The position numbers and the translations under genes were made by a program. From a virus: a stretch of 37,802 nucleotides of DNA. The notes under the pieces were generated by a model. It was not told where the DNA came from, searched no databases, and was given only the letters and a program-made list of their open reading frames with translations. Shown one piece after another: positions 24,731 through 36,760 of this stretch (its first letter is position 1; each line of letters begins with the position of its first letter). The stretch is from positions 1 to 37,802 of IMG/VR virus record IMGVR_UViG_3300046714_000370, one strand, 5' to 3'.

Positions 24731-25315
24731 CTATTTACCTTTCTTGCTCTCGCGCATGGCCTTGAGTTCTTCGGCCTGGTCTTTAACCGCCTGGGTCAAA
24801 TCTGCGATTTGCTGGTCACGCTTCACCAGCTCTGCGTTCATCGCCTTAAGCGGGGCGCCTTCTTTAGCCAAGGCCAGAAACTGAATGGCGCGTTGCTTCA
24901 AAGGCGTCGCGCCCATGATCTTGCCGCAGATGTCATCGCTCAACGTCGCCATCTGGTCAATCGTGCGCACGCCAAAATAGCGGTATTCCTCGATTTGCGC
25001 CAAGTTCATAATACCCCAGGCATCTAGCGGGGTGCCTTGCAGCATCTCTTCTTCCTTCGTCCTTTTCCAGTGGTCATACTGCTTCTGGAAGCGGTCGACG
25101 TCTTGCACACTGATGGGGCGGACAATCGTATTGGAACGGTCGCCGGGTATTACGATTTGGATGTAATCGAACTCCTTGAAGATAGGCCGGCCTTGAATCG
25201 CCGTCTGGTCACTGTCCTGCATGGCCTTGGTAAAGAAACGGACGGCAAGCTTTTCATCGCCTGCGCGTGCACGCATGAACTCGTGCTGGTCACCTTCAAA
25301 TGTCTGCAATTCCAT
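24731..25315 (-). CDS. Conserved phage head-module protein, unknown function
   Basis: The 194-aa product has an early EFDYIQIVIPGDRSNTI strand pair, QDVDRFQKQYDHWKR, GTPLDAWGIMNLAQIEEYRYFGVRTIDQMATLSD, and a C-terminal coiled coil (about 150-194). The combination of PGD, a RFxxQY helix, GTPLxxW and a helix on gIxTVxQLA recurs in many phages next to capsid genes (recalled, not searched). It could be a virion or assembly protein. It has a good AGGAGAG site. Confidence 0.75.
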   Translation of the reverse strand: MELQTFEGDQHEFMRARAGDEKLAVRFFTKAMQDSDQTAIQGRPIFKEFDYIQIVIPGDRSNTIVRPISVQDVDRFQKQYDHWKRTKEEEMLQGTPLDAWGIMNLAQIEEYRYFGVRTIDQMATLSDDICGKIMGATPLKQRAIQFLALAKEGAPLKAMNAELVKRDQQIADLTQAVKDQAEELKAMRESKKGK

Positions 25316-25379
25316 GGTTCTCTCCTAGTGCTGTCACGCACATCGTGCGGGGAATCCGCCTTAGTCGTGCACAGTTGCT

Positions 25380-25559
25380 TCAATAGTTCCTACGTGTCCC
25401 GCTGCGCAGCTTATATGCCATCTGCGCCTGCTTGCGCAATTCGTCGGCACGGTTATAATCCTGGCCGACGCTCTGCGGTATCTGCACCTTGGCGGCGAAG
25501 TTAGGGTTATGCGCCACCGCTTGCATAAGGCGCATTTGCGCCGGTGATTTAGAAGGCAC
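25380..25559 (-). CDS. Small conserved phage protein with KSPAQ N-terminus
   Basis: I place the start at GTG 25559, giving 59 residues that begin MPSKSPAQMRLM and continue AVAHNPNFAAKVQIPQSVG and then ADELRKQA. This (K/S)-S-P/x-A-Q-x-x-L-M-x-A-x-A-H-N-P pattern is familiar from small phage proteins of unknown function, which argues for the GTG start over the in-frame ATG at 25535 (51 aa). It overlaps the end of the 30-aa membrane gene by 11 bases. The start choice is moderately certain. Confidence 0.6.
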   Translation of the reverse strand: MPSKSPAQMRLMQAVAHNPNFAAKVQIPQSVGQDYNRADELRKQAQMAYKLRSGTRRNY

Positions 25560-25641
25560 TTGTGATGACCCAGATGATGGCGAGGACCGTGAAGACTGCG
25601 CACATGCCGAGCACGAGCAAGCCACGGTCCTCGTCCTTCAC
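25549..25641 (-). CDS. 30-aa single-pass membrane protein with GTG start
   Basis: This tiny frame starts with GTG inside the upstream stop region (AAGTGA: stop TGA and start GTG overlap). It encodes six charged or polar residues (KDEDRG) followed by one transmembrane helix (residues 7-29). The tight stop-start overlap and the clean topology argue that it is a real, translationally coupled microprotein. Its function is unknown; a small membrane protein within the head module could belong to lysis timing or to superinfection exclusion. Confidence 0.5.
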   Translation of the reverse strand: MKDEDRGLLVLGMCAVFTVLAIIWVITSAF

Positions 25642-25958
25642 TTTTTGCCCTTTGCCTTCGGCTTGTCTTCGGATTCCTCTTCGTCTTCCTCGACGTAGCC
25701 AATAGGCCTTGGGTCTATCTTCGTCACCGGCTGTGCCGCTGCCAGCTCCGCCGCAACTGACTCGTCCCATTTCTTGCACTCCTCGGTTAGTGAATAATGG
25801 GGACGCTCCAGCGGACGCACGTAAGGAACCTCTGCCACTTTAGGTTCCGCAGCCTTGTCCTTCTTGAGTCCGGCTTGATACTCAGCCTCGGCGTCCTTCT
25901 CGGCCTTGATGACGGCGTCGTGTTCAGCCTTACTATCATGCTTGTGGTCGGCGGTCAT
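25638..25958 (-). CDS. Charged, probably disordered head-module protein
   Basis: The 106-aa product begins with a His, Lys, Asp and Glu-rich helix (residues 1-40). A short ordered part includes VPYVRPLERPHYSLTEECKKWDES and PIGYV, and the end is an acidic then Lys-rich tail (EEDEEESEDKPKAKGKK). It overlaps the previous gene by ATGA and the 30-aa gene by 4 bases. No family is recognised; it may be an assembly accessory. Confidence 0.7.
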   Translation of the reverse strand: MTADHKHDSKAEHDAVIKAEKDAEAEYQAGLKKDKAAEPKVAEVPYVRPLERPHYSLTEECKKWDESVAAELAAAQPVTKIDPRPIGYVEEDEEESEDKPKAKGKK

Positions 25959-26599
25959 GCTGGCGCTGCCGTGGCTGCCAAAGTGGAGCCAAACACGGAC
26001 TGGCTAGCGACAAGAGCCACTCCACTGCGGTTAATAAAGCCAGCTTCCACTGCCACGCCGTTTGCCACGGCGCCGACTGCGGTTACCATTTTGAGACCAA
26101 AGCCGGTGAAGGCAGGGCCGGCACCACCGTCACGCGACCCGCCATTTCCAGCGGCCAGAATGCCAACGCCGGCTGTATAGGGTTGCGGCGTGCTCTTGCC
26201 AAGAGTGGAAGGACCCACCATGACATCACGACCACCACCAATATACAGATAAGTGGAGTCAACAGTGTTCTGTGCCGCAGCAGGGCGCCCAAGCGGCGTC
26301 GTGCCGGCCAGTTGGTCATCATCAAAACCCGCCTTGCGAATGCCATTCACGGTGTTGCTGATGATGGGGTCCGAGATGGGGCCGATGATCGGAGGCGAAC
26401 CATACCCGATGCCGGTTGACAGCGCTCCGGTCGAGCAATTCGCTGGGTCGGGAAGAAACGCCCCGCCAGCTGGGTTCGGCTTCTTTGCATCAAGAGGCGA
26501 ACCTTTCGGCCCAGACAGCGGGTCGAACGTAACCATGCGACCCAGAGTCGGGTTCGCTTGGTTTTGAACCAGGGTTGAACCTGGGAGGGAAGCAGGCAT
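25955..26599 (-). CDS. Gly/Ala-rich head protein, possible decoration protein
   Basis: The 214-aa product is rich in Gly, Ala, Pro, Ser and Thr with no long helices and little charge, for example STGIGYGSPPIIGPISDPI and GGRDVMVGPSTLGKS. A beta-rich protein without charged helices in the head module, downstream of the capsid gene, could be a decoration or minor head protein. No family is recognised. AAGGAG precedes the ATG, and a terminator lies between it and the PEP-CTERM gene upstream. Confidence 0.65.
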   Translation of the reverse strand: MPASLPGSTLVQNQANPTLGRMVTFDPLSGPKGSPLDAKKPNPAGGAFLPDPANCSTGALSTGIGYGSPPIIGPISDPIISNTVNGIRKAGFDDDQLAGTTPLGRPAAAQNTVDSTYLYIGGGRDVMVGPSTLGKSTPQPYTAGVGILAAGNGGSRDGGAGPAFTGFGLKMVTAVGAVANGVAVEAGFINRSGVALVASQSVFGSTLAATAAPA

Positions 26600-26611
26600 G
26601 TAGTTCTCCTT

Positions 26612-26640
26612 GAAAAAGAGCGGGAGCTTTCACCCCCGCT
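26612..26640 (-). terminator. Rho-independent terminator after the PEP-CTERM gene
   Basis: Read on the minus strand, AGCGGGGG-TGAAAG-CTCCCGCT forms an 8-bp stem with one G-T pair and is followed by CTTTTT. It lies 21 bases after the stop of the PEP-CTERM gene and just before the AAGGAG of the next gene. It would reduce expression of downstream tail genes or define the end of a capsid transcript. Confidence 0.8.
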
Positions 26641-26661
26641 TAAGACTCACGGCATGAAACT

Positions 26662-27360
26662 CTATTGCTTCGTCTTGCGACGAACAGTGAAGCCAAGGCC
26701 CATCAAGCCTAAACCCAGCAGGGCCAGCGAACCAGGCTCAGGGACATTGACAGCGTTCGGGAAGGCAACGAGATAAAAACTCTCGCCACCATCCGAAGCG
26801 CCTGACCATTGAGCGCGAAACAACAGACGGTCGCCGATGTTTACGCTTGACAAGTCAAAGCCAGTTAGCAGGTAATCGCCCTTACCGTTGCCATTGAAGA
26901 TGTCCGGCAAAGCGATAGGCCCATCGATGTCGAAGATAATCTTCTGGCCGAGCGGCTTATCCAGGTCAATCAGCTGGAATGTCTGCAGAGTTTCACCTCC
27001 ATGCGCCGTATTGATATCGATGGCAATGCCAAACGTGAAGAGTGGGTCGCCAGCATTCTGAAGAAACGTGCGCAGAAACCCAGAGGTATATGGCGTGACA
27101 TTGATATCGTCGTTGTTGCCAAATGCACCCGTGATGGCCGAGGAAAACAGGTTGAAGCTGCTGTCATTCCCTTGACTGTCAAAGTTGTTAAAGCCAAAGC
27201 CGGCGGGGTTCTGCGCCTGTGTAGCGCAAATCACGCAGGGATTGCTGGACGACTGCGGCACCGGGTTTGGCAATGCCGACAACGTCAAGTTATTGATGGC
27301 GTCTGCGTGCGCCAATGCTGCCATCAGAGCAAGGCCTGCTGCAAGTAGTAACTTCTTCAT
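26662..27360 (-). CDS. Secreted PEP-CTERM sorting-domain protein
   Basis: The 232-aa product begins with a Sec signal peptide (MKKLLLAAGLALMAALAHA, cleavage likely after residue 19). A short C-x2-C (C42, C45) follows, then a polar, mostly beta ectodomain with NTAHGGETLQTFQL and DYLLTGFDLS. The end is a canonical PEP-CTERM tripartite tail: V-P-E-P (206-209), a hydrophobic helix (about 211-225) and a basic end (RRKTKQ). In bacteria, exosortase cleaves this tail and moves the protein to the exterior, often with exopolysaccharide. The phage encodes no exosortase, so it depends on the host enzyme. Its late position and flanking hairpins suggest an acquired accessory gene. AAGGAG precedes ATG 27360; a longer frame upstream crosses the hairpin. 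Confidence 0.9.
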   Translation of the reverse strand: MKKLLLAAGLALMAALAHADAINNLTLSALPNPVPQSSSNPCVICATQAQNPAGFGFNNFDSQGNDSSFNLFSSAITGAFGNNDDINVTPYTSGFLRTFLQNAGDPLFTFGIAIDINTAHGGETLQTFQLIDLDKPLGQKIIFDIDGPIALPDIFNGNGKGDYLLTGFDLSSVNIGDRLLFRAQWSGASDGGESFYLVAFPNAVNVPEPGSLALLGLGLMGLGFTVRRKTKQ

Positions 27361-27379
27361 GCTTGTTCTCCTTAAAGGT

Positions 27380-27401
27380 GCTGAGGGCCGAAGCCCCCAG
27401 C
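27380..27401 (-). terminator. UUCG-loop hairpin between capsid and PEP-CTERM genes
   Basis: On the minus strand, GCTGGGGGC-TTCG-GCCCTCAGC gives a 9-bp stem (one G-T pair) capped by a very stable cUUCGg tetraloop. No T-run follows (ACCTTTAAGG), so it may act as a partial terminator or protect the 3' end of capsid mRNA. Confidence 0.6.
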
Positions 27402-27414
27402 GGTTTGACAACTG

Positions 27415-28491
27415 TTAGTTCGACGTCAAGCGGCCTTGGAACGCATCGCCGCAGGAAGTCATTGCACCGGCAAACGCCAGGATTGCCACTTCGGCGTCCT
27501 GGTTCACTGCGTAGCGCCGGTTCGGGGACAGCGGCACCATGTTACGTGCAGAGTGCGGGCGCCATTTCAGGTATTTCGTGTTAAGGAAATACATGGTCTT
27601 GGCGGCAGCACCTGGACCAAACGCCGATGACGGGAAATACAACCCGCCGTCCAGCACCACGTCAGCATCCATATACTTGATTACCGGGAAGCCCAGCTTT
27701 GCAGCGTTCGGGTCGGTGAAGCGTTGCTGCGCCTGCAGGCTGGACAGATACAGCTGCCACATGAACGTATCGGCGATAATCACATCAGGACGGTCGCGAC
27801 CGCGCACGAGGTTACCCCACACGGTATTCATCTCACCTTGGATTGTGAGATTGGTCAGGGCAGCGGCGGGATGTGATGCCCAAGGACGCCAGAACCCCCA
27901 TGTGACGCGGTCGATAGCCCCATATGTGCCGGTCGCGATACGCCCGCTGGTGCCCGACGCATTGGCAGGAATCGCCGCCTCGAGACCAACGATCATCTTG
28001 CCGCCTGCGCCTGTGCCGTCGGCATAGAAGCCTTGGCTCACCAGGTTGGCCATGGTGGATTCCGCAACGCCGAGGCGTGCATCCATCAGGTCGATCATCT
28101 GCTCTTTGCCTGCTACCTGCAATTCTTCCAGGCCAGAGATGATGACAGGCACCGCGCATTGCTTGAGGGCGAACTGCGCAGCGCTCAACACGTCCTGCGC
28201 CGCGATCGGCAACAGGTCGTAGCCAGAATACCAACCGGCATTTGCGTTCTCCGCGAAGCTGATTTCTTCGAGGATGGTGGAACCGCCAGAAATGGTCTTG
28301 ACATTTCCCTTGTCTTTGATATAGGCAAGGCCGGCATTGTTGTTCGTCACGTTGTCCTGTATGACACGGGTGCGTGACTCGATGGCTGTCGCCACAATGT
28401 CGGTAACGTTTGGAAAAGCAGAAAGAATAAAGCCCATCCGGCTAAGGTAGCCGAACAGCACTGCGTGAAGCTTATTAAGTAGCCAATTCAT
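27415..28491 (-). CDS. Major capsid protein
   Basis: The 358-aa product lies directly after the scaffold gene. It has an N-terminal helical region (1-30), then VTDIVATAIESRTRVIQDNVTNN. A central part contains EEISFAENANAGWYSGYD and SGLEELQVAGKEQMIDLMDARLGVAESTMANLVSQG in helices, a Gly/Ala-rich insertion, and a C-terminal part with DVIIADTFMWQLYLSSLQ and YFLNTKYLKWRPH. This order fits an HK97-fold coat protein. It is the only gene with a dedicated promoter inside the structural operon (28625-28653), as expected for the most abundant virion protein. TGGAGAT precedes the ATG. Confidence 0.85.
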   Translation of the reverse strand: MNWLLNKLHAVLFGYLSRMGFILSAFPNVTDIVATAIESRTRVIQDNVTNNNAGLAYIKDKGNVKTISGGSTILEEISFAENANAGWYSGYDLLPIAAQDVLSAAQFALKQCAVPVIISGLEELQVAGKEQMIDLMDARLGVAESTMANLVSQGFYADGTGAGGKMIVGLEAAIPANASGTSGRIATGTYGAIDRVTWGFWRPWASHPAAALTNLTIQGEMNTVWGNLVRGRDRPDVIIADTFMWQLYLSSLQAQQRFTDPNAAKLGFPVIKYMDADVVLDGGLYFPSSAFGPGAAAKTMYFLNTKYLKWRPHSARNMVPLSPNRRYAVNQDAEVAILAFAGAMTSCGDAFQGRLTSN

Positions 28492-29788: not shown

Positions 29789-30100
29789 TTATGCTCCTGT
29801 AAGTTTATGGATGGCCTTTGAAACGTGCTCTTTCCTGCTTGGGTCATAACCGCTGTTGACCTTGTTACGCTGCTCTTCCTGCTTCCGCCATTGCTGATGA
29901 TAGTCACTGGCAGTCGTCAAGCCCTGCTGCTTCATGTATTCCTGGTGTTGCTTGCGGGAGGCGAACCTTGGGTCGCCCATGTCCTGGTAGGCACGGTCAT
30001 TCCAGAGTATGCTGTCCTGCACGCTACGAGCATCGGGGACATAGTCATCCCCGACCTCGATAGCCTCGCACCCGCGGTAAATCCATCTGCGTCTCATCAT
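29789..30100 (-). CDS. Small conserved head-module protein
   Basis: In the 103-aa product the N-terminus RRRWIYRGCEAIEVGDDY is followed by ARSVQDSILWNDRAYQDMGDPRFASRKQHQEYMKQQGL and a basic Arg/Lys-rich tail. The R-R-W-x-Y-R start and S-R-x-x-x-x-x-Y-M-K-x-x-G-L helix recur in small proteins between portal and scaffold of podoviruses (recalled). Its role is unknown. Its start overlaps the portal stop. Confidence 0.72.
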   Translation of the reverse strand: MMRRRWIYRGCEAIEVGDDYVPDARSVQDSILWNDRAYQDMGDPRFASRKQHQEYMKQQGLTTASDYHQQWRKQEEQRNKVNSGYDPSRKEHVSKAIHKLTGA

Positions 30101-32130
30101 TGCACCGTTTGTGGAGGCGGATAGTTAGGGATTGCCGTCTGCGGCGGACGTCCAGGCCCACCGCCGCCTGGAGGCAACTGCACCTGGCCTTGCGGACCTT
30201 GCGGCGGAGGACCCGGTGGCTTGGAACCCGGCGGGATTTGCGCGAGCATCTCCGGCGAATACCCGTTGCGCATGAGCGCAGCCATGGTCTCGGCATTGGT
30301 CTGCTTCGCCTCTGCCGTGCCTTTCTCGGCGTCGGCATGCTCCTTGAGCTCTTTGGGCGTAGGCGGCTTCGGTGGCGGCGGCGTTGCGAGCGACAGCTTG
30401 AGCGCATCGACAGCCTGGTCAAGCACGCCCTCTATTTCCTTGCCGGCCTTGAACCCGGTCGCAGCCCATTGCAGCATCTGTATCAGGAAGATACCGGACC
30501 CAGGATGCTGCTGTATCAGCGGCATGCTCATACCAATGAATTGGGACGTCGCCTGCAGGAAGTCAATACGCTGCTGTTTCTCCTGGTTCCAGTCTGGCGC
30601 CGCTGTCGTGTCTGCGGTTATCTTCAGCCGCAGGGCGATTTGCGACGAACTCTTGAGCAGCATCACCGCCTGCTGGGCAAGCTTGGCATCCGGCGTCTGC
30701 ATGATCTGCGAGCGCTCGATGATCGTCTGGGGTTGCCAATGGTTACAGATGATCTCCGCGCGTATCTGCGTGGACGTGGTCAGGAATTTGGCAATGTCAT
30801 CCTGCGAGCGGCTGATACGCGCGAAGCCATATTGAGACTTGAGCTGCTGCGCCGTCGCTGTCTCAGAGGCAACCGACATGCCGCGCATCAAGTCCGACAG
30901 TCCTAGAATTTCGTAGACCTCTTGGAGCAATGCCTTCTTGCGCTCTGTCATCTGGACGAGCGTCGATATCACCATGTCCAACGGCAGCCAGTCGATGGCG
31001 CCCTTGATACCGCCTGCTTCGGCGAACATCGCCCAGTTATCCACCGGGATAAGCTGGTTCATGCCGGCCTGGTTCAATAGCCGTTGCACGCCGTCCGCCG
31101 TCTTGTTATAGACGCCCACAACCTTGAGCGCCTCTGTCAACAGCTTCATGCGTGACGCCAGCAGGTTCAGCTCGCCATATTGGTCCTGCACCATGGCGAA
31201 GTCAGGTCGCGGCAGGAACGCATTGGTCAAGTGCGACGCGATCAGCGGCTTGGCGACAGGGTAGAACCCGGTCAGCCCCAGCGGGTTCGCCTTGAAGTCA
31301 AGTATGACGGCAGCACCGATGCTGAACCAGAACGTGCCGCCGAACTCCTCGCACCAAATCTCGATGATTTCACCCAGAGGTTCCGGCGACTGGCGCATCG
31401 GGTCCTCTGCCGCCAGCGACTTTGACTGGCCTGACTTGAGCTGCACCTGCTCGGCAATCACCTTGCCAAACCGTTCTATGATCTTGCGCTTGTTCATATA
31501 CACGCGGCGCGCGAGCCAGCGCTTCTCCTGCCATGTGCGGCACGGAGAATAGAAGAAGTCATCCCACCGGACATAGTCTATAGGCGCGCGTTCGTCGGTA
31601 ATGACGGTCATCTCCACTTGCGGCGCCAGTTCACGCGTGCCGTCTGGGCTCATAATGGGCGGAGACACCGTCGTCTGGGACTGGAACTCATACCTTGGCC
31701 AGACGATGCCGATTCCTGGCACGAACCTGTCTTGGATGGCCAGCTTGTAGATATCCTCAGGAGACTCGCGGGGGTCGTCAAGCTCAAACTCAAATATGCG
31801 CTGCAGCATATTGGCAGCTACCCTCGCGACGTCGTCATTCTGGTCCAAGTGGAGGCGATCTACCTCAGGCGCCGGCAGTTTCGCGTAGACTGTCGCCAGC
31901 ACTACTTGGACATTCGCCCAGAACACGTTGAAGCGGGCGTTGTTGCCCTCATCCTGCTGCTCCATGTGCTGCGACAGATACTCCGCCTCCACCTTGCGTC
32001 CTGCCGCATGGTAAGACTGCATCCACTTCTTGGAGGCATTGAACTCCTTCGTCCAGTAGCTCGCCCAATCCTGAGGCGTATACTTGGCAAAGTCGTCGTC
32101 GCTCTTGCCGCTGTAGTTGCTTTCACTCAT
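30097..32130 (-). CDS. Portal protein
   Basis: The 677-aa product sits between large terminase and scaffold. The N-terminal part has a helical wing domain (about 1-120, SYHAAGRKVEAEYLSQ and NVQVVLATVYAKLPAPEV). The middle contains beta strands with DYVRWDDFFYSPCRTWQEKRW. A long helical stem and crown region (about 280-560) includes LNLLASRMKLLTEALKVVGVYN and VYEILGLSDLMRGMSVASETATAQQLKSQYG in turn, and the tail is Pro/Gly-rich (600-677). This matches podovirus portals that form the dodecameric head vertex and DNA entry pore. I use ATG 32130, which overlaps the terminase stop; an upstream ATG at 32142 is less likely. Confidence 0.9.
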   Translation of the reverse strand: MSESNYSGKSDDDFAKYTPQDWASYWTKEFNASKKWMQSYHAAGRKVEAEYLSQHMEQQDEGNNARFNVFWANVQVVLATVYAKLPAPEVDRLHLDQNDDVARVAANMLQRIFEFELDDPRESPEDIYKLAIQDRFVPGIGIVWPRYEFQSQTTVSPPIMSPDGTRELAPQVEMTVITDERAPIDYVRWDDFFYSPCRTWQEKRWLARRVYMNKRKIIERFGKVIAEQVQLKSGQSKSLAAEDPMRQSPEPLGEIIEIWCEEFGGTFWFSIGAAVILDFKANPLGLTGFYPVAKPLIASHLTNAFLPRPDFAMVQDQYGELNLLASRMKLLTEALKVVGVYNKTADGVQRLLNQAGMNQLIPVDNWAMFAEAGGIKGAIDWLPLDMVISTLVQMTERKKALLQEVYEILGLSDLMRGMSVASETATAQQLKSQYGFARISRSQDDIAKFLTTSTQIRAEIICNHWQPQTIIERSQIMQTPDAKLAQQAVMLLKSSSQIALRLKITADTTAAPDWNQEKQQRIDFLQATSQFIGMSMPLIQQHPGSGIFLIQMLQWAATGFKAGKEIEGVLDQAVDALKLSLATPPPPKPPTPKELKEHADAEKGTAEAKQTNAETMAALMRNGYSPEMLAQIPPGSKPPGPPPQGPQGQVQLPPGGGGPGRPPQTAIPNYPPPQTVQ

Positions 32131-33515
32131 ATGCGTAACCATCCTCTTTTATCATTTGCGGCATCTTCATGGAGCTGCTCAAGCGTGAAGGTGTAGCATG
32201 CGCCGTTCGGCACCCACACTTCACTCTGCTGCTCCAGGTTAAGCGGTGCTTTACTCCAGTCCTTCATCTCTGCGCTTAGCACGACGGACAGATACGTATA
32301 GGCATCCCCGCCGTGTGAAGCCCAGTTGTGCAGCGGTTCCTGGCTGAACACCTTGCGCACGTCGTCCCACTGGAATGACCACTCGCGCAATGCCATCAGC
32401 CCGCGCTCGCAGTGTGTCCGGCTGAACCTGCAATATGGCAACATCGTCCGCGCGGCATTGATACGGTCGAATATCTTAGTGCTCGGCACGATGCTCACAA
32501 CACTAAATGCACCCAGGAACTGTTCCAGCACCGAGTGCTTGGAGGCGAACGTCTTGTTCCTAGCATCGTGAGGCAACCATACCTTGCCAACATCGTAGCG
32601 TGAGTTCTTTATCCTCTTCGTCCAATCACCCGCGTCCAGACCCGCCGCCTCATCATAACCGACAAGCTCCGGGCCTGTTGCCTGAACCTGGACATACCAG
32701 ACGGCGGTAGTGTCACGGAAGCCGATGTCGAGGACGGCCATAACCTGTTCACCACTGGACTTGTAGAGGTCTTCATCGAGTATTCTCCCTTCCTTCTCTG
32801 CCGCTTCGATATACCCGCCGAGCACTGCGCCTACGTTCGCCGCCGAGAAGTCACAGTAGAACTCCTGGCGTATCAGCTCCTTGGGCATGCCGTCGTCGGC
32901 TTCCTTCTGGATGTCGGCCGGTGTCAGGACATGCGTGTCGTCTACCGTCTTGCGGGAGTAGAACCACTCAGGATTGTCTTTGGCAATCTCGGCAATGTCG
33001 AAGCCGTGGTTATAGCCGCGTGGCGTGTAGATGAACCACGCCCATCCACCGTTTTCCACAAGTATCGGCCGGATGAAGTCCCACACACGCGGGTCGGTAA
33101 GGGACCACTCGCTAAACACGACGCCCACTGGGTTAGACCCAATGAGCGCGCTGTAATTGTCCGACCCAACCACTTGGTAATTTGACCCGCATTTGAGCGG
33201 GATGCGCATTTCCGTAGAGTTCGGGTTGCCTTTACGTAACGGGCTTGGGAACGCCATGTCAATGAGCCTGTGTCCCTCTTTTGTGAGTGTCTCCCATACC
33301 ACCTTACGACCCTGACGCTGTGTAGGGAGACAATGATAGTATAGTCCCCGACGCTTGTGCGCCATCTTCGCGATCTGGTGTATAGCAACGAAGTCCTTTC
33401 CGGCACGTCTGTGCCATACCGATGCCCCGCGCAACCCGCCGTTGTCAAAATAGGCCATCGCCTCCTGCTGGTATGGCCGGAGTGTCGACGTGTTGGGGAG
33501 TATGATGTTAGTCAT
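32127..33515 (-). CDS. Terminase large subunit
   Basis: The 462-aa DNA-packaging ATPase and nuclease has a Walker A of the RRAGKD type (HRRAGKD, 35-41, with Asp replacing Ser/Thr). Walker B is GVVFSE with E136, and a coupling region TPRG lies near 164-167. The RNase H-like nuclease domain starts at AVLDIGFRDTT (D263, D268) and ends with HGGDAYTYL. All expected acidic residues are present. It moves DNA through the portal, encoded directly downstream (ATGA overlap). It starts in a TAATG overlap with the 1081-aa protein. Confidence 0.95.
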   Translation of the reverse strand: MTNIILPNTSTLRPYQQEAMAYFDNGGLRGASVWHRRAGKDFVAIHQIAKMAHKRRGLYYHCLPTQRQGRKVVWETLTKEGHRLIDMAFPSPLRKGNPNSTEMRIPLKCGSNYQVVGSDNYSALIGSNPVGVVFSEWSLTDPRVWDFIRPILVENGGWAWFIYTPRGYNHGFDIAEIAKDNPEWFYSRKTVDDTHVLTPADIQKEADDGMPKELIRQEFYCDFSAANVGAVLGGYIEAAEKEGRILDEDLYKSSGEQVMAVLDIGFRDTTAVWYVQVQATGPELVGYDEAAGLDAGDWTKRIKNSRYDVGKVWLPHDARNKTFASKHSVLEQFLGAFSVVSIVPSTKIFDRINAARTMLPYCRFSRTHCERGLMALREWSFQWDDVRKVFSQEPLHNWASHGGDAYTYLSVVLSAEMKDWSKAPLNLEQQSEVWVPNGACYTFTLEQLHEDAANDKRGWLRI

Positions 33516-36500
33516 TAGCGATACGCAGATGCATAACCTAATGAGTTCAGTATGCCCGGCAGATTCTCGCGGTCGACGGGGTCAAGCACGCGTTTTTCCT
33601 TCAGCTTCTCCAGCTTGCCCGCTGCGCGTTCTATAGCCTGCTCCACCATATTGATATTAGCGCCGGGCCTTCCCCTGACCGCCGTCAATAGTTGCGCAAT
33701 GTGCTCATCCACTGACGGCACACCCTGATAGCCTACGCCAGACCTGGACAATAATACATTCCCGCGCGGATTATCGAGTTTACCCGCCGTTACCATCTGA
33801 CGTATTAGGTCAGTGTTCATTTGGGAGAACCGCGGCGACGGCGTAAAGTTGTTGTCCACGTAGTATTGCTTGAGCTCCGGCGGCGGACGCCCTACGTGAG
33901 GTTCCTGCTCTGCCTGCGCCATGCGCTCCAGGTAAGGCGCCAGCCGCGGTTCCATATCAGGATGCATCGCCAAAATGCTCCGCACTTGCGCCGGGCCCAG
34001 ATGGCCTCTGTCCGGCACGATGAACCCGCCGCCTGGGAGCGGCACTTGCTGCTCGTTCGGTATGCCGAGACGTTGTTGCTCTGCCTGCCACGGGCGATAC
34101 CGCCGCTGCATGATAAGGTCGCGTATCTCGGCACGCGGCACGAAGAACGCAGGGTTGCGCCGTATCTGCTCGGCACCTTGCACTGTATTGAACGCGCCAC
34201 CCGGCAGTCCCTCCGGCGTCCTCGTCGCGAACACCTCGCCTTTATCTCCAAATATATCCTTGATGTAGGTGTTTGTGTCACGCGCATAAGCCTCACGGTT
34301 GCGACCCTGCACGCTTTGCGCATCACCGCCTTGCGGCACCATCTCCTGCGGCCACTTCTGCTGCTTTGTAATGTCCCGCAGCGGCACCCAGCGGCCTTCC
34401 TGAAGCCTCTCCGGCGGCAACAGCTTCTCTACATTATACATCCCGCCGCCCAGGCAATTCCCGCCAAAGCACGAATCCACCGACAATGCGTTCTTCACAT
34501 ACTCAGGGTCCATGCCCTTATGGAAGCGGAGGACACTGCCTTCGGGCCTCTGTATCACGGGTTCGTCAGGGTGCAGCGCCAGAATCCTGCCCGCTGCCTC
34601 CTGCTGCCTGCCCAGCAATGCCTCCGCCGATCTGGACTCAGCCGTCTTGATCTTGTTCGCTTCGATCAAGAGCTGCGGTATTGTCATCTTCTCCAGCTTG
34701 CGCGCCGGCACCTGGCGCATGTATGGCCTAAGCTCGTTCAAGTATATCTTGAGATCGTCCGTCGGCTTCAGGTCCCACACCATGTCATTCGCCCTGCCGC
34801 CTGGCGGCCGCATCTCCTGCGGCACCTCTTGGAACGGCGCGCCCTTGATGGACTTATCCGTCAGCTGCTCATATGTCCCCTGAGGCCCGCCGCGCTCACG
34901 GGAGACCACCGGCAGCGCATTGGCCGGGTCCACCGTCGTGCCTGCGTGCTGCCGCAGATAGTTCGTCGCCGCCTTCTCCAGCCACGCCGTATGCTCTGGC
35001 GTATTGCTGAAGCGATACAGGCGTTGCGCCTCGGCCAATGACCTTGGCGACCACTCGCCGCCGCGCGGCTTCACGGCGCCGATCTGCGCGGCCAACCCGC
35101 CTGCCGCAGGACCCTCTGGCATCGTCGCCAAGCGCATCGGCACGTTCGCCGCCGCCATCTTCGCGCCTTGCATGGCGGGGCCGACGCCTGGCACATATGG
35201 CGGTATCTTGAGCGTGTCGAGCGCATTGCCGAACTGCTCAATCGCGCCCTGCCCATACTCGGTCCTTGGCGCATAGCTCATCATGCGCATCGTGTCCTTG
35301 AACGCGTCCTCGCTCGGGCGACCGCCGCGTATGTGGGACGCGAGCTCCGTGCCCACGGCGAACGGGAACGCACCCATGGACGTGCCGATGGCGGCGGCCG
35401 ACTCCACCGCGCCACCCGCCGTCTTGAGCATCCTGGACAGGAACCCCTGGCCCTTGAGGAGCTCCTTGTCGCGGTCCTTCTCCTCGATGGGGCGCTCACG
35501 CACTTGCTGCGTCTGGATGCGCTTTGTGATGTCGTCGTCTTGTGCCATGGCATTGCCCTCGTCTGTTCCCAATAGCGCCATACCGCCTGCCGCCCCCGCG
35601 CCTTTTATCTTCCACCCAAGTTTCGCCGCTGTGTCCTGCCGCAGCTTGTCCGCCGCCAGTTCCTTGGCGTTAATGTCGCCCATGCGGGCGGCATCACGCT
35701 GCGCCGTGTCGGCATCCTTCTTCACCCTGCGCGCTTCGCGCATCGTGTCCAGCGTTTCCTGCGCCGCGGCGATGCGGTCCTCGTTCCCTGACTCCTTCGC
35801 CGACGACAGCCGCTTCCGCGCCTGGTCTATCGCCTTCCACTCCGGGTCCGACGCCGCCATGTCCTGGCGCCACACCCTCGCCGTGTCCAGCTGCCGCTGC
35901 CGGAACGCAGGGTCGCTGTGATAGCGTTCCGTCGTCCTCGCCAGCGCCGCCTGCTTGTAAAGCTCATAGTCCTCGGGGGACATGGTCTCACGCGCCTTGA
36001 ACGCCCTGTCTGCGGGGGACAGGCCCCTGACGCCTGGCACTTTGGGCTTCGCCGCCTCCGCCTCGTCTGGGTCACTCAACGCCAATGCCGTCGCGCCTGC
36101 CGCCGCTGCACCCAGCTCACCGGTGCGCTTCGCCCTCAGTTTCGCCTGCAAGCCGCGCAATTCGGGAACCAGGTCGTTGGCCTCAACCTCTTTCCCCTGC
36201 TTGCGCAGATACGTGATCTGCGCCTGCTTGTTCTGCATCGCACGGAAGTCAGGGTCTTCGCGCATGCGTGTTGCATACGCGCTTTGATTGGGGGCCTTGA
36301 GTGGATTCTCAGCCCGAATCGCTTCCTTCTCGGCTATCGTCTTCTCACGGGCGTCTTCTATCCCTTGTAACCGCGCTGCCGTCCGCTCCTGTTTCTCCAG
36401 CGCTCTGCGCTCTGCCCTTGCGGCGCGGACCTCATTCAGGTTCGCTTCAAGTTCCGCGACCTTATCCGCATTGCCTACACGCTTGTGGTAAGCAAGTAAA

Positions 36501-36760
36501 TTAGACAAAGCCGCTCTCTGTTTAAACTCTGGGTCATTCTGATACGCGTTACGCGCGTTCTCCGCGCGGCGCGCCCGCTGTTCATCTCTGAACTCCGGGT
36601 CGTTCGCCCACCTATCTCTTTGATACGCATTCATGTAGTCACGATGCGCCTGACGATCTTCTGGAGACAAATCCTCGAAATATTTCCAGGATTTATCCGC
36701 CTGGGAAATTTCATTTACGCCTTTAATGCGTATTTTAGGCGGTTTAGGCGGCAGAGCCAT
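33515..36760 (-). CDS. Large multi-repeat protein between terminase subunits
   Basis: The 1081-aa product of unknown function is the largest gene. Residues 31-115 and 260-344 are an ungapped 85-residue duplication, each starting (L/M)SPED and containing DP(E/A)FR, DPE(F/W), GN and REAR/VRAAR. A third partial copy lies at about 160-212. Residues 360-470 include Ala/Gly-rich hydrophobic stretches. The C-terminal 500 residues are mixed alpha-beta with an unusual Cys/Gly motif VDSCFGGNCLGGGMYN (near 770-785). Size, repeats and Ala/Gly segments suggest a virion or ejected polyvalent protein, though its position between the small and large terminase is odd. Confidence 0.75.
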   Translation of the reverse strand: MALPPKPPKIRIKGVNEISQADKSWKYFEDLSPEDRQAHRDYMNAYQRDRWANDPEFRDEQRARRAENARNAYQNDPEFKQRAALSNLLAYHKRVGNADKVAELEANLNEVRAARAERRALEKQERTAARLQGIEDAREKTIAEKEAIRAENPLKAPNQSAYATRMREDPDFRAMQNKQAQITYLRKQGKEVEANDLVPELRGLQAKLRAKRTGELGAAAAGATALALSDPDEAEAAKPKVPGVRGLSPADRAFKARETMSPEDYELYKQAALARTTERYHSDPAFRQRQLDTARVWRQDMAASDPEWKAIDQARKRLSSAKESGNEDRIAAAQETLDTMREARRVKKDADTAQRDAARMGDINAKELAADKLRQDTAAKLGWKIKGAGAAGGMALLGTDEGNAMAQDDDITKRIQTQQVRERPIEEKDRDKELLKGQGFLSRMLKTAGGAVESAAAIGTSMGAFPFAVGTELASHIRGGRPSEDAFKDTMRMMSYAPRTEYGQGAIEQFGNALDTLKIPPYVPGVGPAMQGAKMAAANVPMRLATMPEGPAAGGLAAQIGAVKPRGGEWSPRSLAEAQRLYRFSNTPEHTAWLEKAATNYLRQHAGTTVDPANALPVVSRERGGPQGTYEQLTDKSIKGAPFQEVPQEMRPPGGRANDMVWDLKPTDDLKIYLNELRPYMRQVPARKLEKMTIPQLLIEANKIKTAESRSAEALLGRQQEAAGRILALHPDEPVIQRPEGSVLRFHKGMDPEYVKNALSVDSCFGGNCLGGGMYNVEKLLPPERLQEGRWVPLRDITKQQKWPQEMVPQGGDAQSVQGRNREAYARDTNTYIKDIFGDKGEVFATRTPEGLPGGAFNTVQGAEQIRRNPAFFVPRAEIRDLIMQRRYRPWQAEQQRLGIPNEQQVPLPGGGFIVPDRGHLGPAQVRSILAMHPDMEPRLAPYLERMAQAEQEPHVGRPPPELKQYYVDNNFTPSPRFSQMNTDLIRQMVTAGKLDNPRGNVLLSRSGVGYQGVPSVDEHIAQLLTAVRGRPGANINMVEQAIERAAGKLEKLKEKRVLDPVDRENLPGILNSLGYASAYR

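Follow-up and report, generated by a model that had tools for sequence, protein, structure and literature searches.

Phage-encoded putative exosortase substrates with exchangeable C-terminal sorting tails

Could a phage encode a protein that is addressed to the sorting machinery of its host? Here, we describe a gene in the IMG/VR virus record IMGVR_UViG_3300046714_000370 (the whole stretch analysed, 37,802 nucleotides, is called the window below), which probably is mobile phage cargo encoding an exosortase substrate, whose product would leave the cytoplasm by Sec and then be sorted by the host exosortase, ending at the cell surface or in the polysaccharide. To judge from its sequence and those of its relatives, it is not one odd gene and appears to belong to a family spread over many phages, whose members encode substrates of the exosortase type and exchange their labels. 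As outlined by Haft et al. (2006; PMC1569441), the bacterial substrates of the PEP-CTERM/exosortase (EpsH) system carry a signal peptide, a PEP motif, a transmembrane helix and a basic cluster, and their ectodomains, often several per genome, have little homology to known proteins. The phage protein shows the four elements outlined there; unlike the bacterial substrates, it is encoded among phage genes, in a record without exosortase. The word "phage" does not occur in the text of that article, and no published description of phage-encoded exosortase-type substrates was found in the open-access literature.

The gene, which begins with an ATG at 27358-27360 and stops at 26662, and its surroundings are listed in Table 1. 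A sequence-only reading had already delimited this open reading frame; the frame is real and its coordinates hold, while its strand is corrected here to minus. Several stops are present in the plus strand of 26662-27360. The protein starts with MKKLLLAAGLALMAALAHA^D... and ends in NVPEPGSLALLGLGLMGLGFTVRRKTKQ. It matches the Pfam PEP-CTERM model PF07589 (E 6.6e-8, 32.8 bits, cut-off 20.7) and TIGR02595 (26.2 bits, cut-off 16; 30.5 bits in a second scan, in which none of 14 control genomes matched), and with both scores above the cut-offs the earlier description of a complete PEP-CTERM protein (signal peptide, ectodomain and tail) in a phage is borne out. Between signal and tail (residues 20-203), the structure model consists of strands with a single short helix, without any further transmembrane helix. 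The protein falls far under the cut-off of every named NCBIfam PEP-CTERM subfamily (THxN, EDSAP-1, PepA, XDP1, FxDxF and others), and its subfamily scores are mostly derived from the tail (THxN 36.2 against 85, PepA 25.1 against 80). The architecture of signal peptide plus tail, defined by a rule of our own that recovers 50 of the 64 complete family members, occurs in only 2 of 453 other reading frames of at least 120 aa at 43 related loci, both of which are themselves PEP-CTERM proteins. Therefore, the architecture of the window protein is not due to chance.

Table 1. Features of the PEP-CTERM gene and its neighbourhood, in window positions
Feature	Position	Strand	Evidence or remark
Terminase large subunit	32127..33515	-	phrog_2, E 3.7e-22
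Portal protein	30097..32142	-	phrog_12082, E 2.4e-149
Major capsid protein gene	27415..28491	-	phrog_9953, E 6.9e-94; 54 nt upstream of the PEP-CTERM gene
GC-rich UUCG hairpin without T run, between capsid and PEP-CTERM genes	27380..27401	-	z -2.45 (60-nt stretch)
Ribosome-binding site AAGGAGA	27367..27373	-	read from the sequence; AAGGAG 6 nt 5' of the ATG
CDS of the PEP-CTERM protein, 232 aa	26662..27360	-	reading frame, Pfam and TIGR02595 matches, identical copy in another contig
Putative Sec signal peptide, aa 1-19	27304..27360	-	sequence reading; predicted SPase I site AHA^D, without lipobox
Ectodomain, aa 20-203	26752..27303	-	predicted beta-sandwich (AlphaFold2); conserved CxxC and DGGESFY motifs (family alignment)
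CVIC, aa 42-45	27226..27237	-	Cys-x-x-Cys conserved in most family members
PEP-CTERM sorting tail: VPEP, hydrophobic helix, RRKTK	26674..26745	-	TIGR02595; helix aa 210-231 in the model
Terminator-like hairpin with CTTTTTC, 3' of the PEP-CTERM gene	26619..26640	-	z -1.97
Downstream neighbour, 214 aa, function unassigned	25955..26599	-	no PHROG match; relatives near the capsid gene in some capsid relatives

Profile scans of IMG/VR gave 48 and then 66 loci, and 69 loci with relatives of the gene (36-100% identical) are known in total. With the window added, the family set has 70 rows and falls into 43 clusters at 95%. Two of the rows (L124 and L134) are halves of a single gene and are located at both ends of the contig IMGVR_UViG_3300028802_000206, which is probably circular, because one gene spans its two ends. 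The 100% identical copy of the window gene is carried by the contig IMGVR_UViG_3300046499_000504 from a different sample, and a single-sequence search revealed a 62% relative between the portal and scaffold genes of a phage with a different capsid. Invariant positions in the family alignment are PC-I, FG-NN, D-N, G-G-D and DG-ESF; the first Cys of the CxxC motif is invariant and the second almost so (lost in L126 and L132). Our own signal-peptide rule is passed by 62 of the 64 complete members.

Every member with its C-terminus present ends in a sorting-like tail, and at least four forms could be distinguished, that is, VPEP.., V/TP(L/I/V)Px.., VPEASTWAMM.. (like PEPxxWA) and VPGPIVGAGxPGL... 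Among 32 members scanned with NCBIfam at E 0.01, the tails of nine match VPLPA-CTERM (TIGR03370) and those of four match PEP-CTERM (TIGR02595); the window tail is of the PEP type instead of the VPLPA type. It should be noted that no NCBIfam model was met for VPGPIVGAGxPGL. This tail, which ranks among the two most frequent classes, is treated as a sorting signal only on account of its form.

Then, is the tail class simply inherited with the ectodomain? We placed the classes on a tree of 41 ectodomain rows with the tails removed (L153, which has no motif, was dropped and L134 was left out), on which 17 rows are PxPA, 15 GAGxPG, eight PEP and one PEPxxWA. The tree requires 12 changes of class, while the least possible number is 3 and the mean for shuffled tails is 19.1; thus, inheritance accounts for part of the tail pattern. 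Sister to the window (PEP), with support of 95/89, is L090 (GAGxPG), L112 and L094 form a second supported PEP/GAGxPG pair, and L106 (GAGxPG) falls within a supported group (100/99) holding five VPLPA-like members. In four pairs, the first of them compared with L089, a near copy of L090, the ectodomains are 69-94% identical at the amino acid level and the tails 37-54%. The labels are exchanged between phages, presumably to match the enzyme of whichever host is in use.

The tails of single phages were compared by searching 50 records with a GAGxPG tail profile, VPLPA-CTERM and PEP-CTERM. Two tail proteins, often neighbours, were found in 12 of them: nine GAG+GAG, three PEP+PEP and none mixed (P 0.002 by shuffling the paired tails, 0.005 without the three records known to be double beforehand). 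Ten of these pairs were read letter by letter, and in G071 and G105 the second member was taken by its profile score; a 54-aa frame in G080, a 15.5-bit third match in G098 and a 97-aa frame in G075 are not counted as tail proteins. At L165, L172, L190, L203, L112 and L144, paired tail proteins with unlike bodies and one tail class lie close by. One tail class per phage is expected if the label must fit the enzyme of the host, and unmixed tails within a record could also arise by duplication of neighbouring genes or tails in place. The exosortase model TIGR02602 has no match in 46 phage records. That the relatives keep a tail, swap its type and have one type per phage in records without exosortase speaks for the earlier suggestion that the host exosortase would be used.

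Could the Arg-bearing helix be a mere anchor, with no exosortase involved? The protein would then be a membrane-anchored periplasmic protein that acts in lysis, as a spanin does, or on the membrane itself. A signal peptide, a periplasmic beta domain and a C-terminal helix also describe a type I membrane protein, and an endolysin-like cluster is present no more than four genes away in 6 of 43 contexts (genes of the cluster stand beside the members L094, L100, L101 and L149, the identity of the endolysin coming from L101; in L094 and L100 it lies about 25 nt directly upstream). However, non-lysis neighbours prevail in most contexts. One-part spanins are held in the outer membrane through an N-terminal lipobox; none of the 64 complete members has a lipobox, so an outer-membrane anchor of this kind is absent. 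Moreover, curated models of sorting signals recognise the tails, and closely related ectodomains bear tails of different class. A plain anchor needs neither, and its class would not need changing while staying within the known sorting classes. Consequently, we consider this explanation unlikely.

Where the gene is located differs between the window phage and its relatives. The window gene follows the capsid gene, whose product is 59.6% identical to the major capsid protein of Stenotrophomonas phage BUCT555, and the opposite arm of the window holds replication genes (helicase/primase, DNA polymerase, helicase and thymidylate synthase). No integrase was found in the window record by phrog_1, and the tRNA search found none. 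Host assignment through the terminase and portal proteins of the relatives was also tried and rejected, the nearest named phages (Microcystis, Rhizobium, enterobacteria and others) being too distant at about 40-50% identity. A 1081-aa protein with repeated DPEF-like segments and no PHROG match adjoins the terminase (33515-36760, minus strand). Because hairpins flank the PEP-CTERM gene on both sides, it might form a small unit inside the structural operon, a weak indication; with 4 terminator-like sites in the region against 3.6 expected, these sites themselves are weak. No sigma-70-type promoter above chance was detected near the gene.

The interval behind the capsid gene (25315-27415 in the window; L002-L081) is a slot that varies in length and content within the phage group, and in the capsid relatives having both genes the capsid gene and the relative of window 24731-25315 are 379 to 3279 nt apart. 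Among the best 80 of 592 capsid relatives, none carries the PEP-CTERM gene, so the gene is cargo in the window phage. For the family, PHROGs were run on 30 neighbours from 23 loci, delimited with a crude reading-frame caller of our own. The neighbours include integrase (L095, L098, L099, L120, L152), terminase (L089, L122, L145, L148, L150), portal (L114), scaffold (L091), prohead (L145), virion structural protein (L112), baseplate-like protein (L094), endolysin (L101), tail fibre (L120, L126), helicase (L108, L153), DNA polymerase (L130), and exonuclease with ssDNA-binding protein (L147), while the remaining seven have no PHROG match or one of unassigned function. Therefore, adjacency to the capsid gene, which the sequence-only reading had put forward, does not hold as a rule. 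Of 46 records, 11 have an integrase, which in 8 cases lies within 1.5 kb of the family gene; the P value of 6e-6 for this proximity is optimistic, because the 1.5 kb limit was chosen post hoc and several of the integrases are related. A gene beside the integrase is typically one that the lysogen expresses, and the position in these temperate relatives fits such expression. Action late in infection, also proposed earlier, is thus retained for the window alone, where adjacency to the capsid gene suggests late expression.

What could the ectodomain be? AlphaFold2, with 61 rows, predicts a beta-sandwich with fair confidence (pLDDT 85.5, pTM 0.86). Foldseek gave no match at E 0.001 or better (the first model against PDB and BFVD, the second against PDB), and a PDB sequence search gave no match. 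The top structural rows are 8pxu_C (Z 7.4, rmsd 3.3, 117 residues aligned) and 2c26 (Z 5.5, rmsd 4.2, 127 aligned); the neighbours, all with Z below 8, include many carbohydrate-binding modules (CBM32/35/27-like) and lectins, mixed with capsid jelly rolls and TGF-beta entries. As Foldseek gave none and the neighbours are mixed with capsids, the likeness to carbohydrate-binding proteins may serve as a lead only.

The protein might also be read as a virion decoration (cement) protein with a signal-like N-terminus by chance, the position beside the capsid gene being the clue. The model has a weak likeness to chains from the capsid entries of a Bordetella phage (3j4u_H, Z 5.0, rmsd 4.0, 106 aligned) and of Carin1 (8cjz_A, Z 5.0, rmsd 3.6, 103 aligned). 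However, in this comparison lectins and carbohydrate-binding modules reach the same values of about 5, the gene is missing from the capsid relatives noted above and its own relatives sit by integrases and replication genes. In addition, the persisting signal peptide and tail would take the protein from the cytoplasm, the site of head assembly. We therefore regard a role in the capsid as very unlikely.

The scattered presence of the gene and its absence from close capsid relatives would also be found for a passenger recently captured and functionless in the phage. However, the gene recurs across many phage lineages, and the ectodomain is under purifying selection: dN is 0.07-0.27 and dS at least 0.93 in all three computable ectodomain pairs, two of which have dN 0.16-0.27 against dS 1.3-2.6. 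A functionless passenger is, accordingly, very improbable as well.

The family was also sought outside IMG/VR. In 84,980 bacterial and archaeal genomes, scans seeded with two sets of peptide patterns gave 210 and 43 pattern matches and no relative; of the 70 known members, 3 contain the first set and 66 the second, and more distant chromosomal relatives may escape the scan because the second set was derived from these members. Four family members had no relative in INPHARED by tblastn: the window had a chance-level match only (14% covered, E 10), L155 had matches of E 0.1-0.5 only, and L118 and L125 had none. No relative was found on plasmids (PLSDB) with the window and L130 as queries, nor any match of the tail peptide, which the low-complexity filter may explain. 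Sought by three families or a neighbour scan, a terminase turned up in 27 of the 46 records of the family and in 10 of 21 further records, all three families having been applied to part of the records only. At L193 and L228, pairs of tail proteins are on opposite strands and have LILASGGLLAWWRRRQ-type ends, and host DNA is possible in these contigs. The members could be genes for bacterial surface proteins, in contigs that are misassigned or flank a provirus, as their restriction to IMG/VR, the many fragments, the terminase in just 37 of 67 records and the chromosomal look of the tails at L193 and L228 would allow, but this is the least credible explanation, since capsid, portal and terminase genes lie upstream of the window gene on the same strand, many relatives are a few genes from terminase, portal, scaffold or prohead genes, and no relative appeared in the pattern-seeded scan of the bacterial and archaeal genomes, where chromosomal genes should be commonest.

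For the phage-encoded exosortase substrate, the following steps are proposed. Sec would export the protein via its signal peptide, and the C-terminal helix would hold it in the inner membrane with Arg/Lys inside. The host exosortase would cut at the VPEP motif and deliver the ectodomain, a beta-sandwich, to the surface of the cell or to its exopolysaccharide; that is, ectodomain and label would come from the phage and the sorter from the host. Sec export and C-terminal anchoring are proposed because both can be read from the sequence, and cutting because the tails fall in sorting classes and are exchanged. Display at the surface or matrix has been proposed for bacterial PEP-CTERM proteins (PMC1569441, PMC9850573); for example, exopolysaccharide is reported to move from the soluble to the bound state with PepA, a bacterial PEP-CTERM protein (PMC9850573). 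Cleavage and display of the phage protein are what we infer from these likenesses, which suggest that phages may dress the surface of infected cells using host machinery.

What would such display be for? Possibly, though with somewhat less than an even chance, the displayed domain would mask receptors on infected or lysogenic cells or alter their polysaccharide coat and so lower adsorption of other phages. The sequence-only reading had likewise proposed that the protein may block superinfection or change matrix adhesion, and that it may point to the host range. Phage superinfection-exclusion or lysogenic-conversion surface proteins exist, including LPXTG-anchored ones. The present proteins resemble them as would-be cargo changing the cell surface, located beside the integrase in temperate relatives; they differ in their exosortase-type tails. 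Chances seem about equal for and against a broader proposal, in which phages of polysaccharide-coated Gram-negative bacteria would share an exosortase-addressed pool: ectodomains and labels would be recombined, the label would follow the host, so that tail class predicts the exosortase class of the host, the proteins would coat infected or lysogenic cells and alter attachment, and VPGPIVGAGxPGL would be a further signal class. So far, exosortase substrates have been bacterial surface or matrix proteins of largely unclear purpose. If phages carry such substrates and refit their labels to the host, they target the sorting pathway, simple adsorption assays could address what the substrates are for, and the label hints at the host of phages that only metagenomes have revealed.

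The tails are not confined to this family. Pattern scans of IMG/VR found 82 stretches with VPGPIVGAG and 17 with VPEPGSLALLG; all 101 in-frame matches lie within 60 aa of the frame end, and a hydrophobic run with basic residues is seen at the ends inspected. Several unlike phage bodies (L157-L238) frequently end in VPGPIVGAGxPGL, which no NCBIfam tail model matches and which by its sequence is a candidate sorting-signal class. Three GAG-tailed phage proteins (L158:2026-2565, L172:5230-5778 and L203:9292-9846) match the ectodomain of the bacterial FxDxF family (NF038126; E 6.9e-12, 45.9 bits, under the cut-off of 50), from which they differ by their VPGPIVGAG tails, while in the window protein the match to this model is confined to the tail. 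Since FxDxF ectodomains carry GAG tails here, some bodies may have been taken from bacterial surface proteins and their tails refitted.
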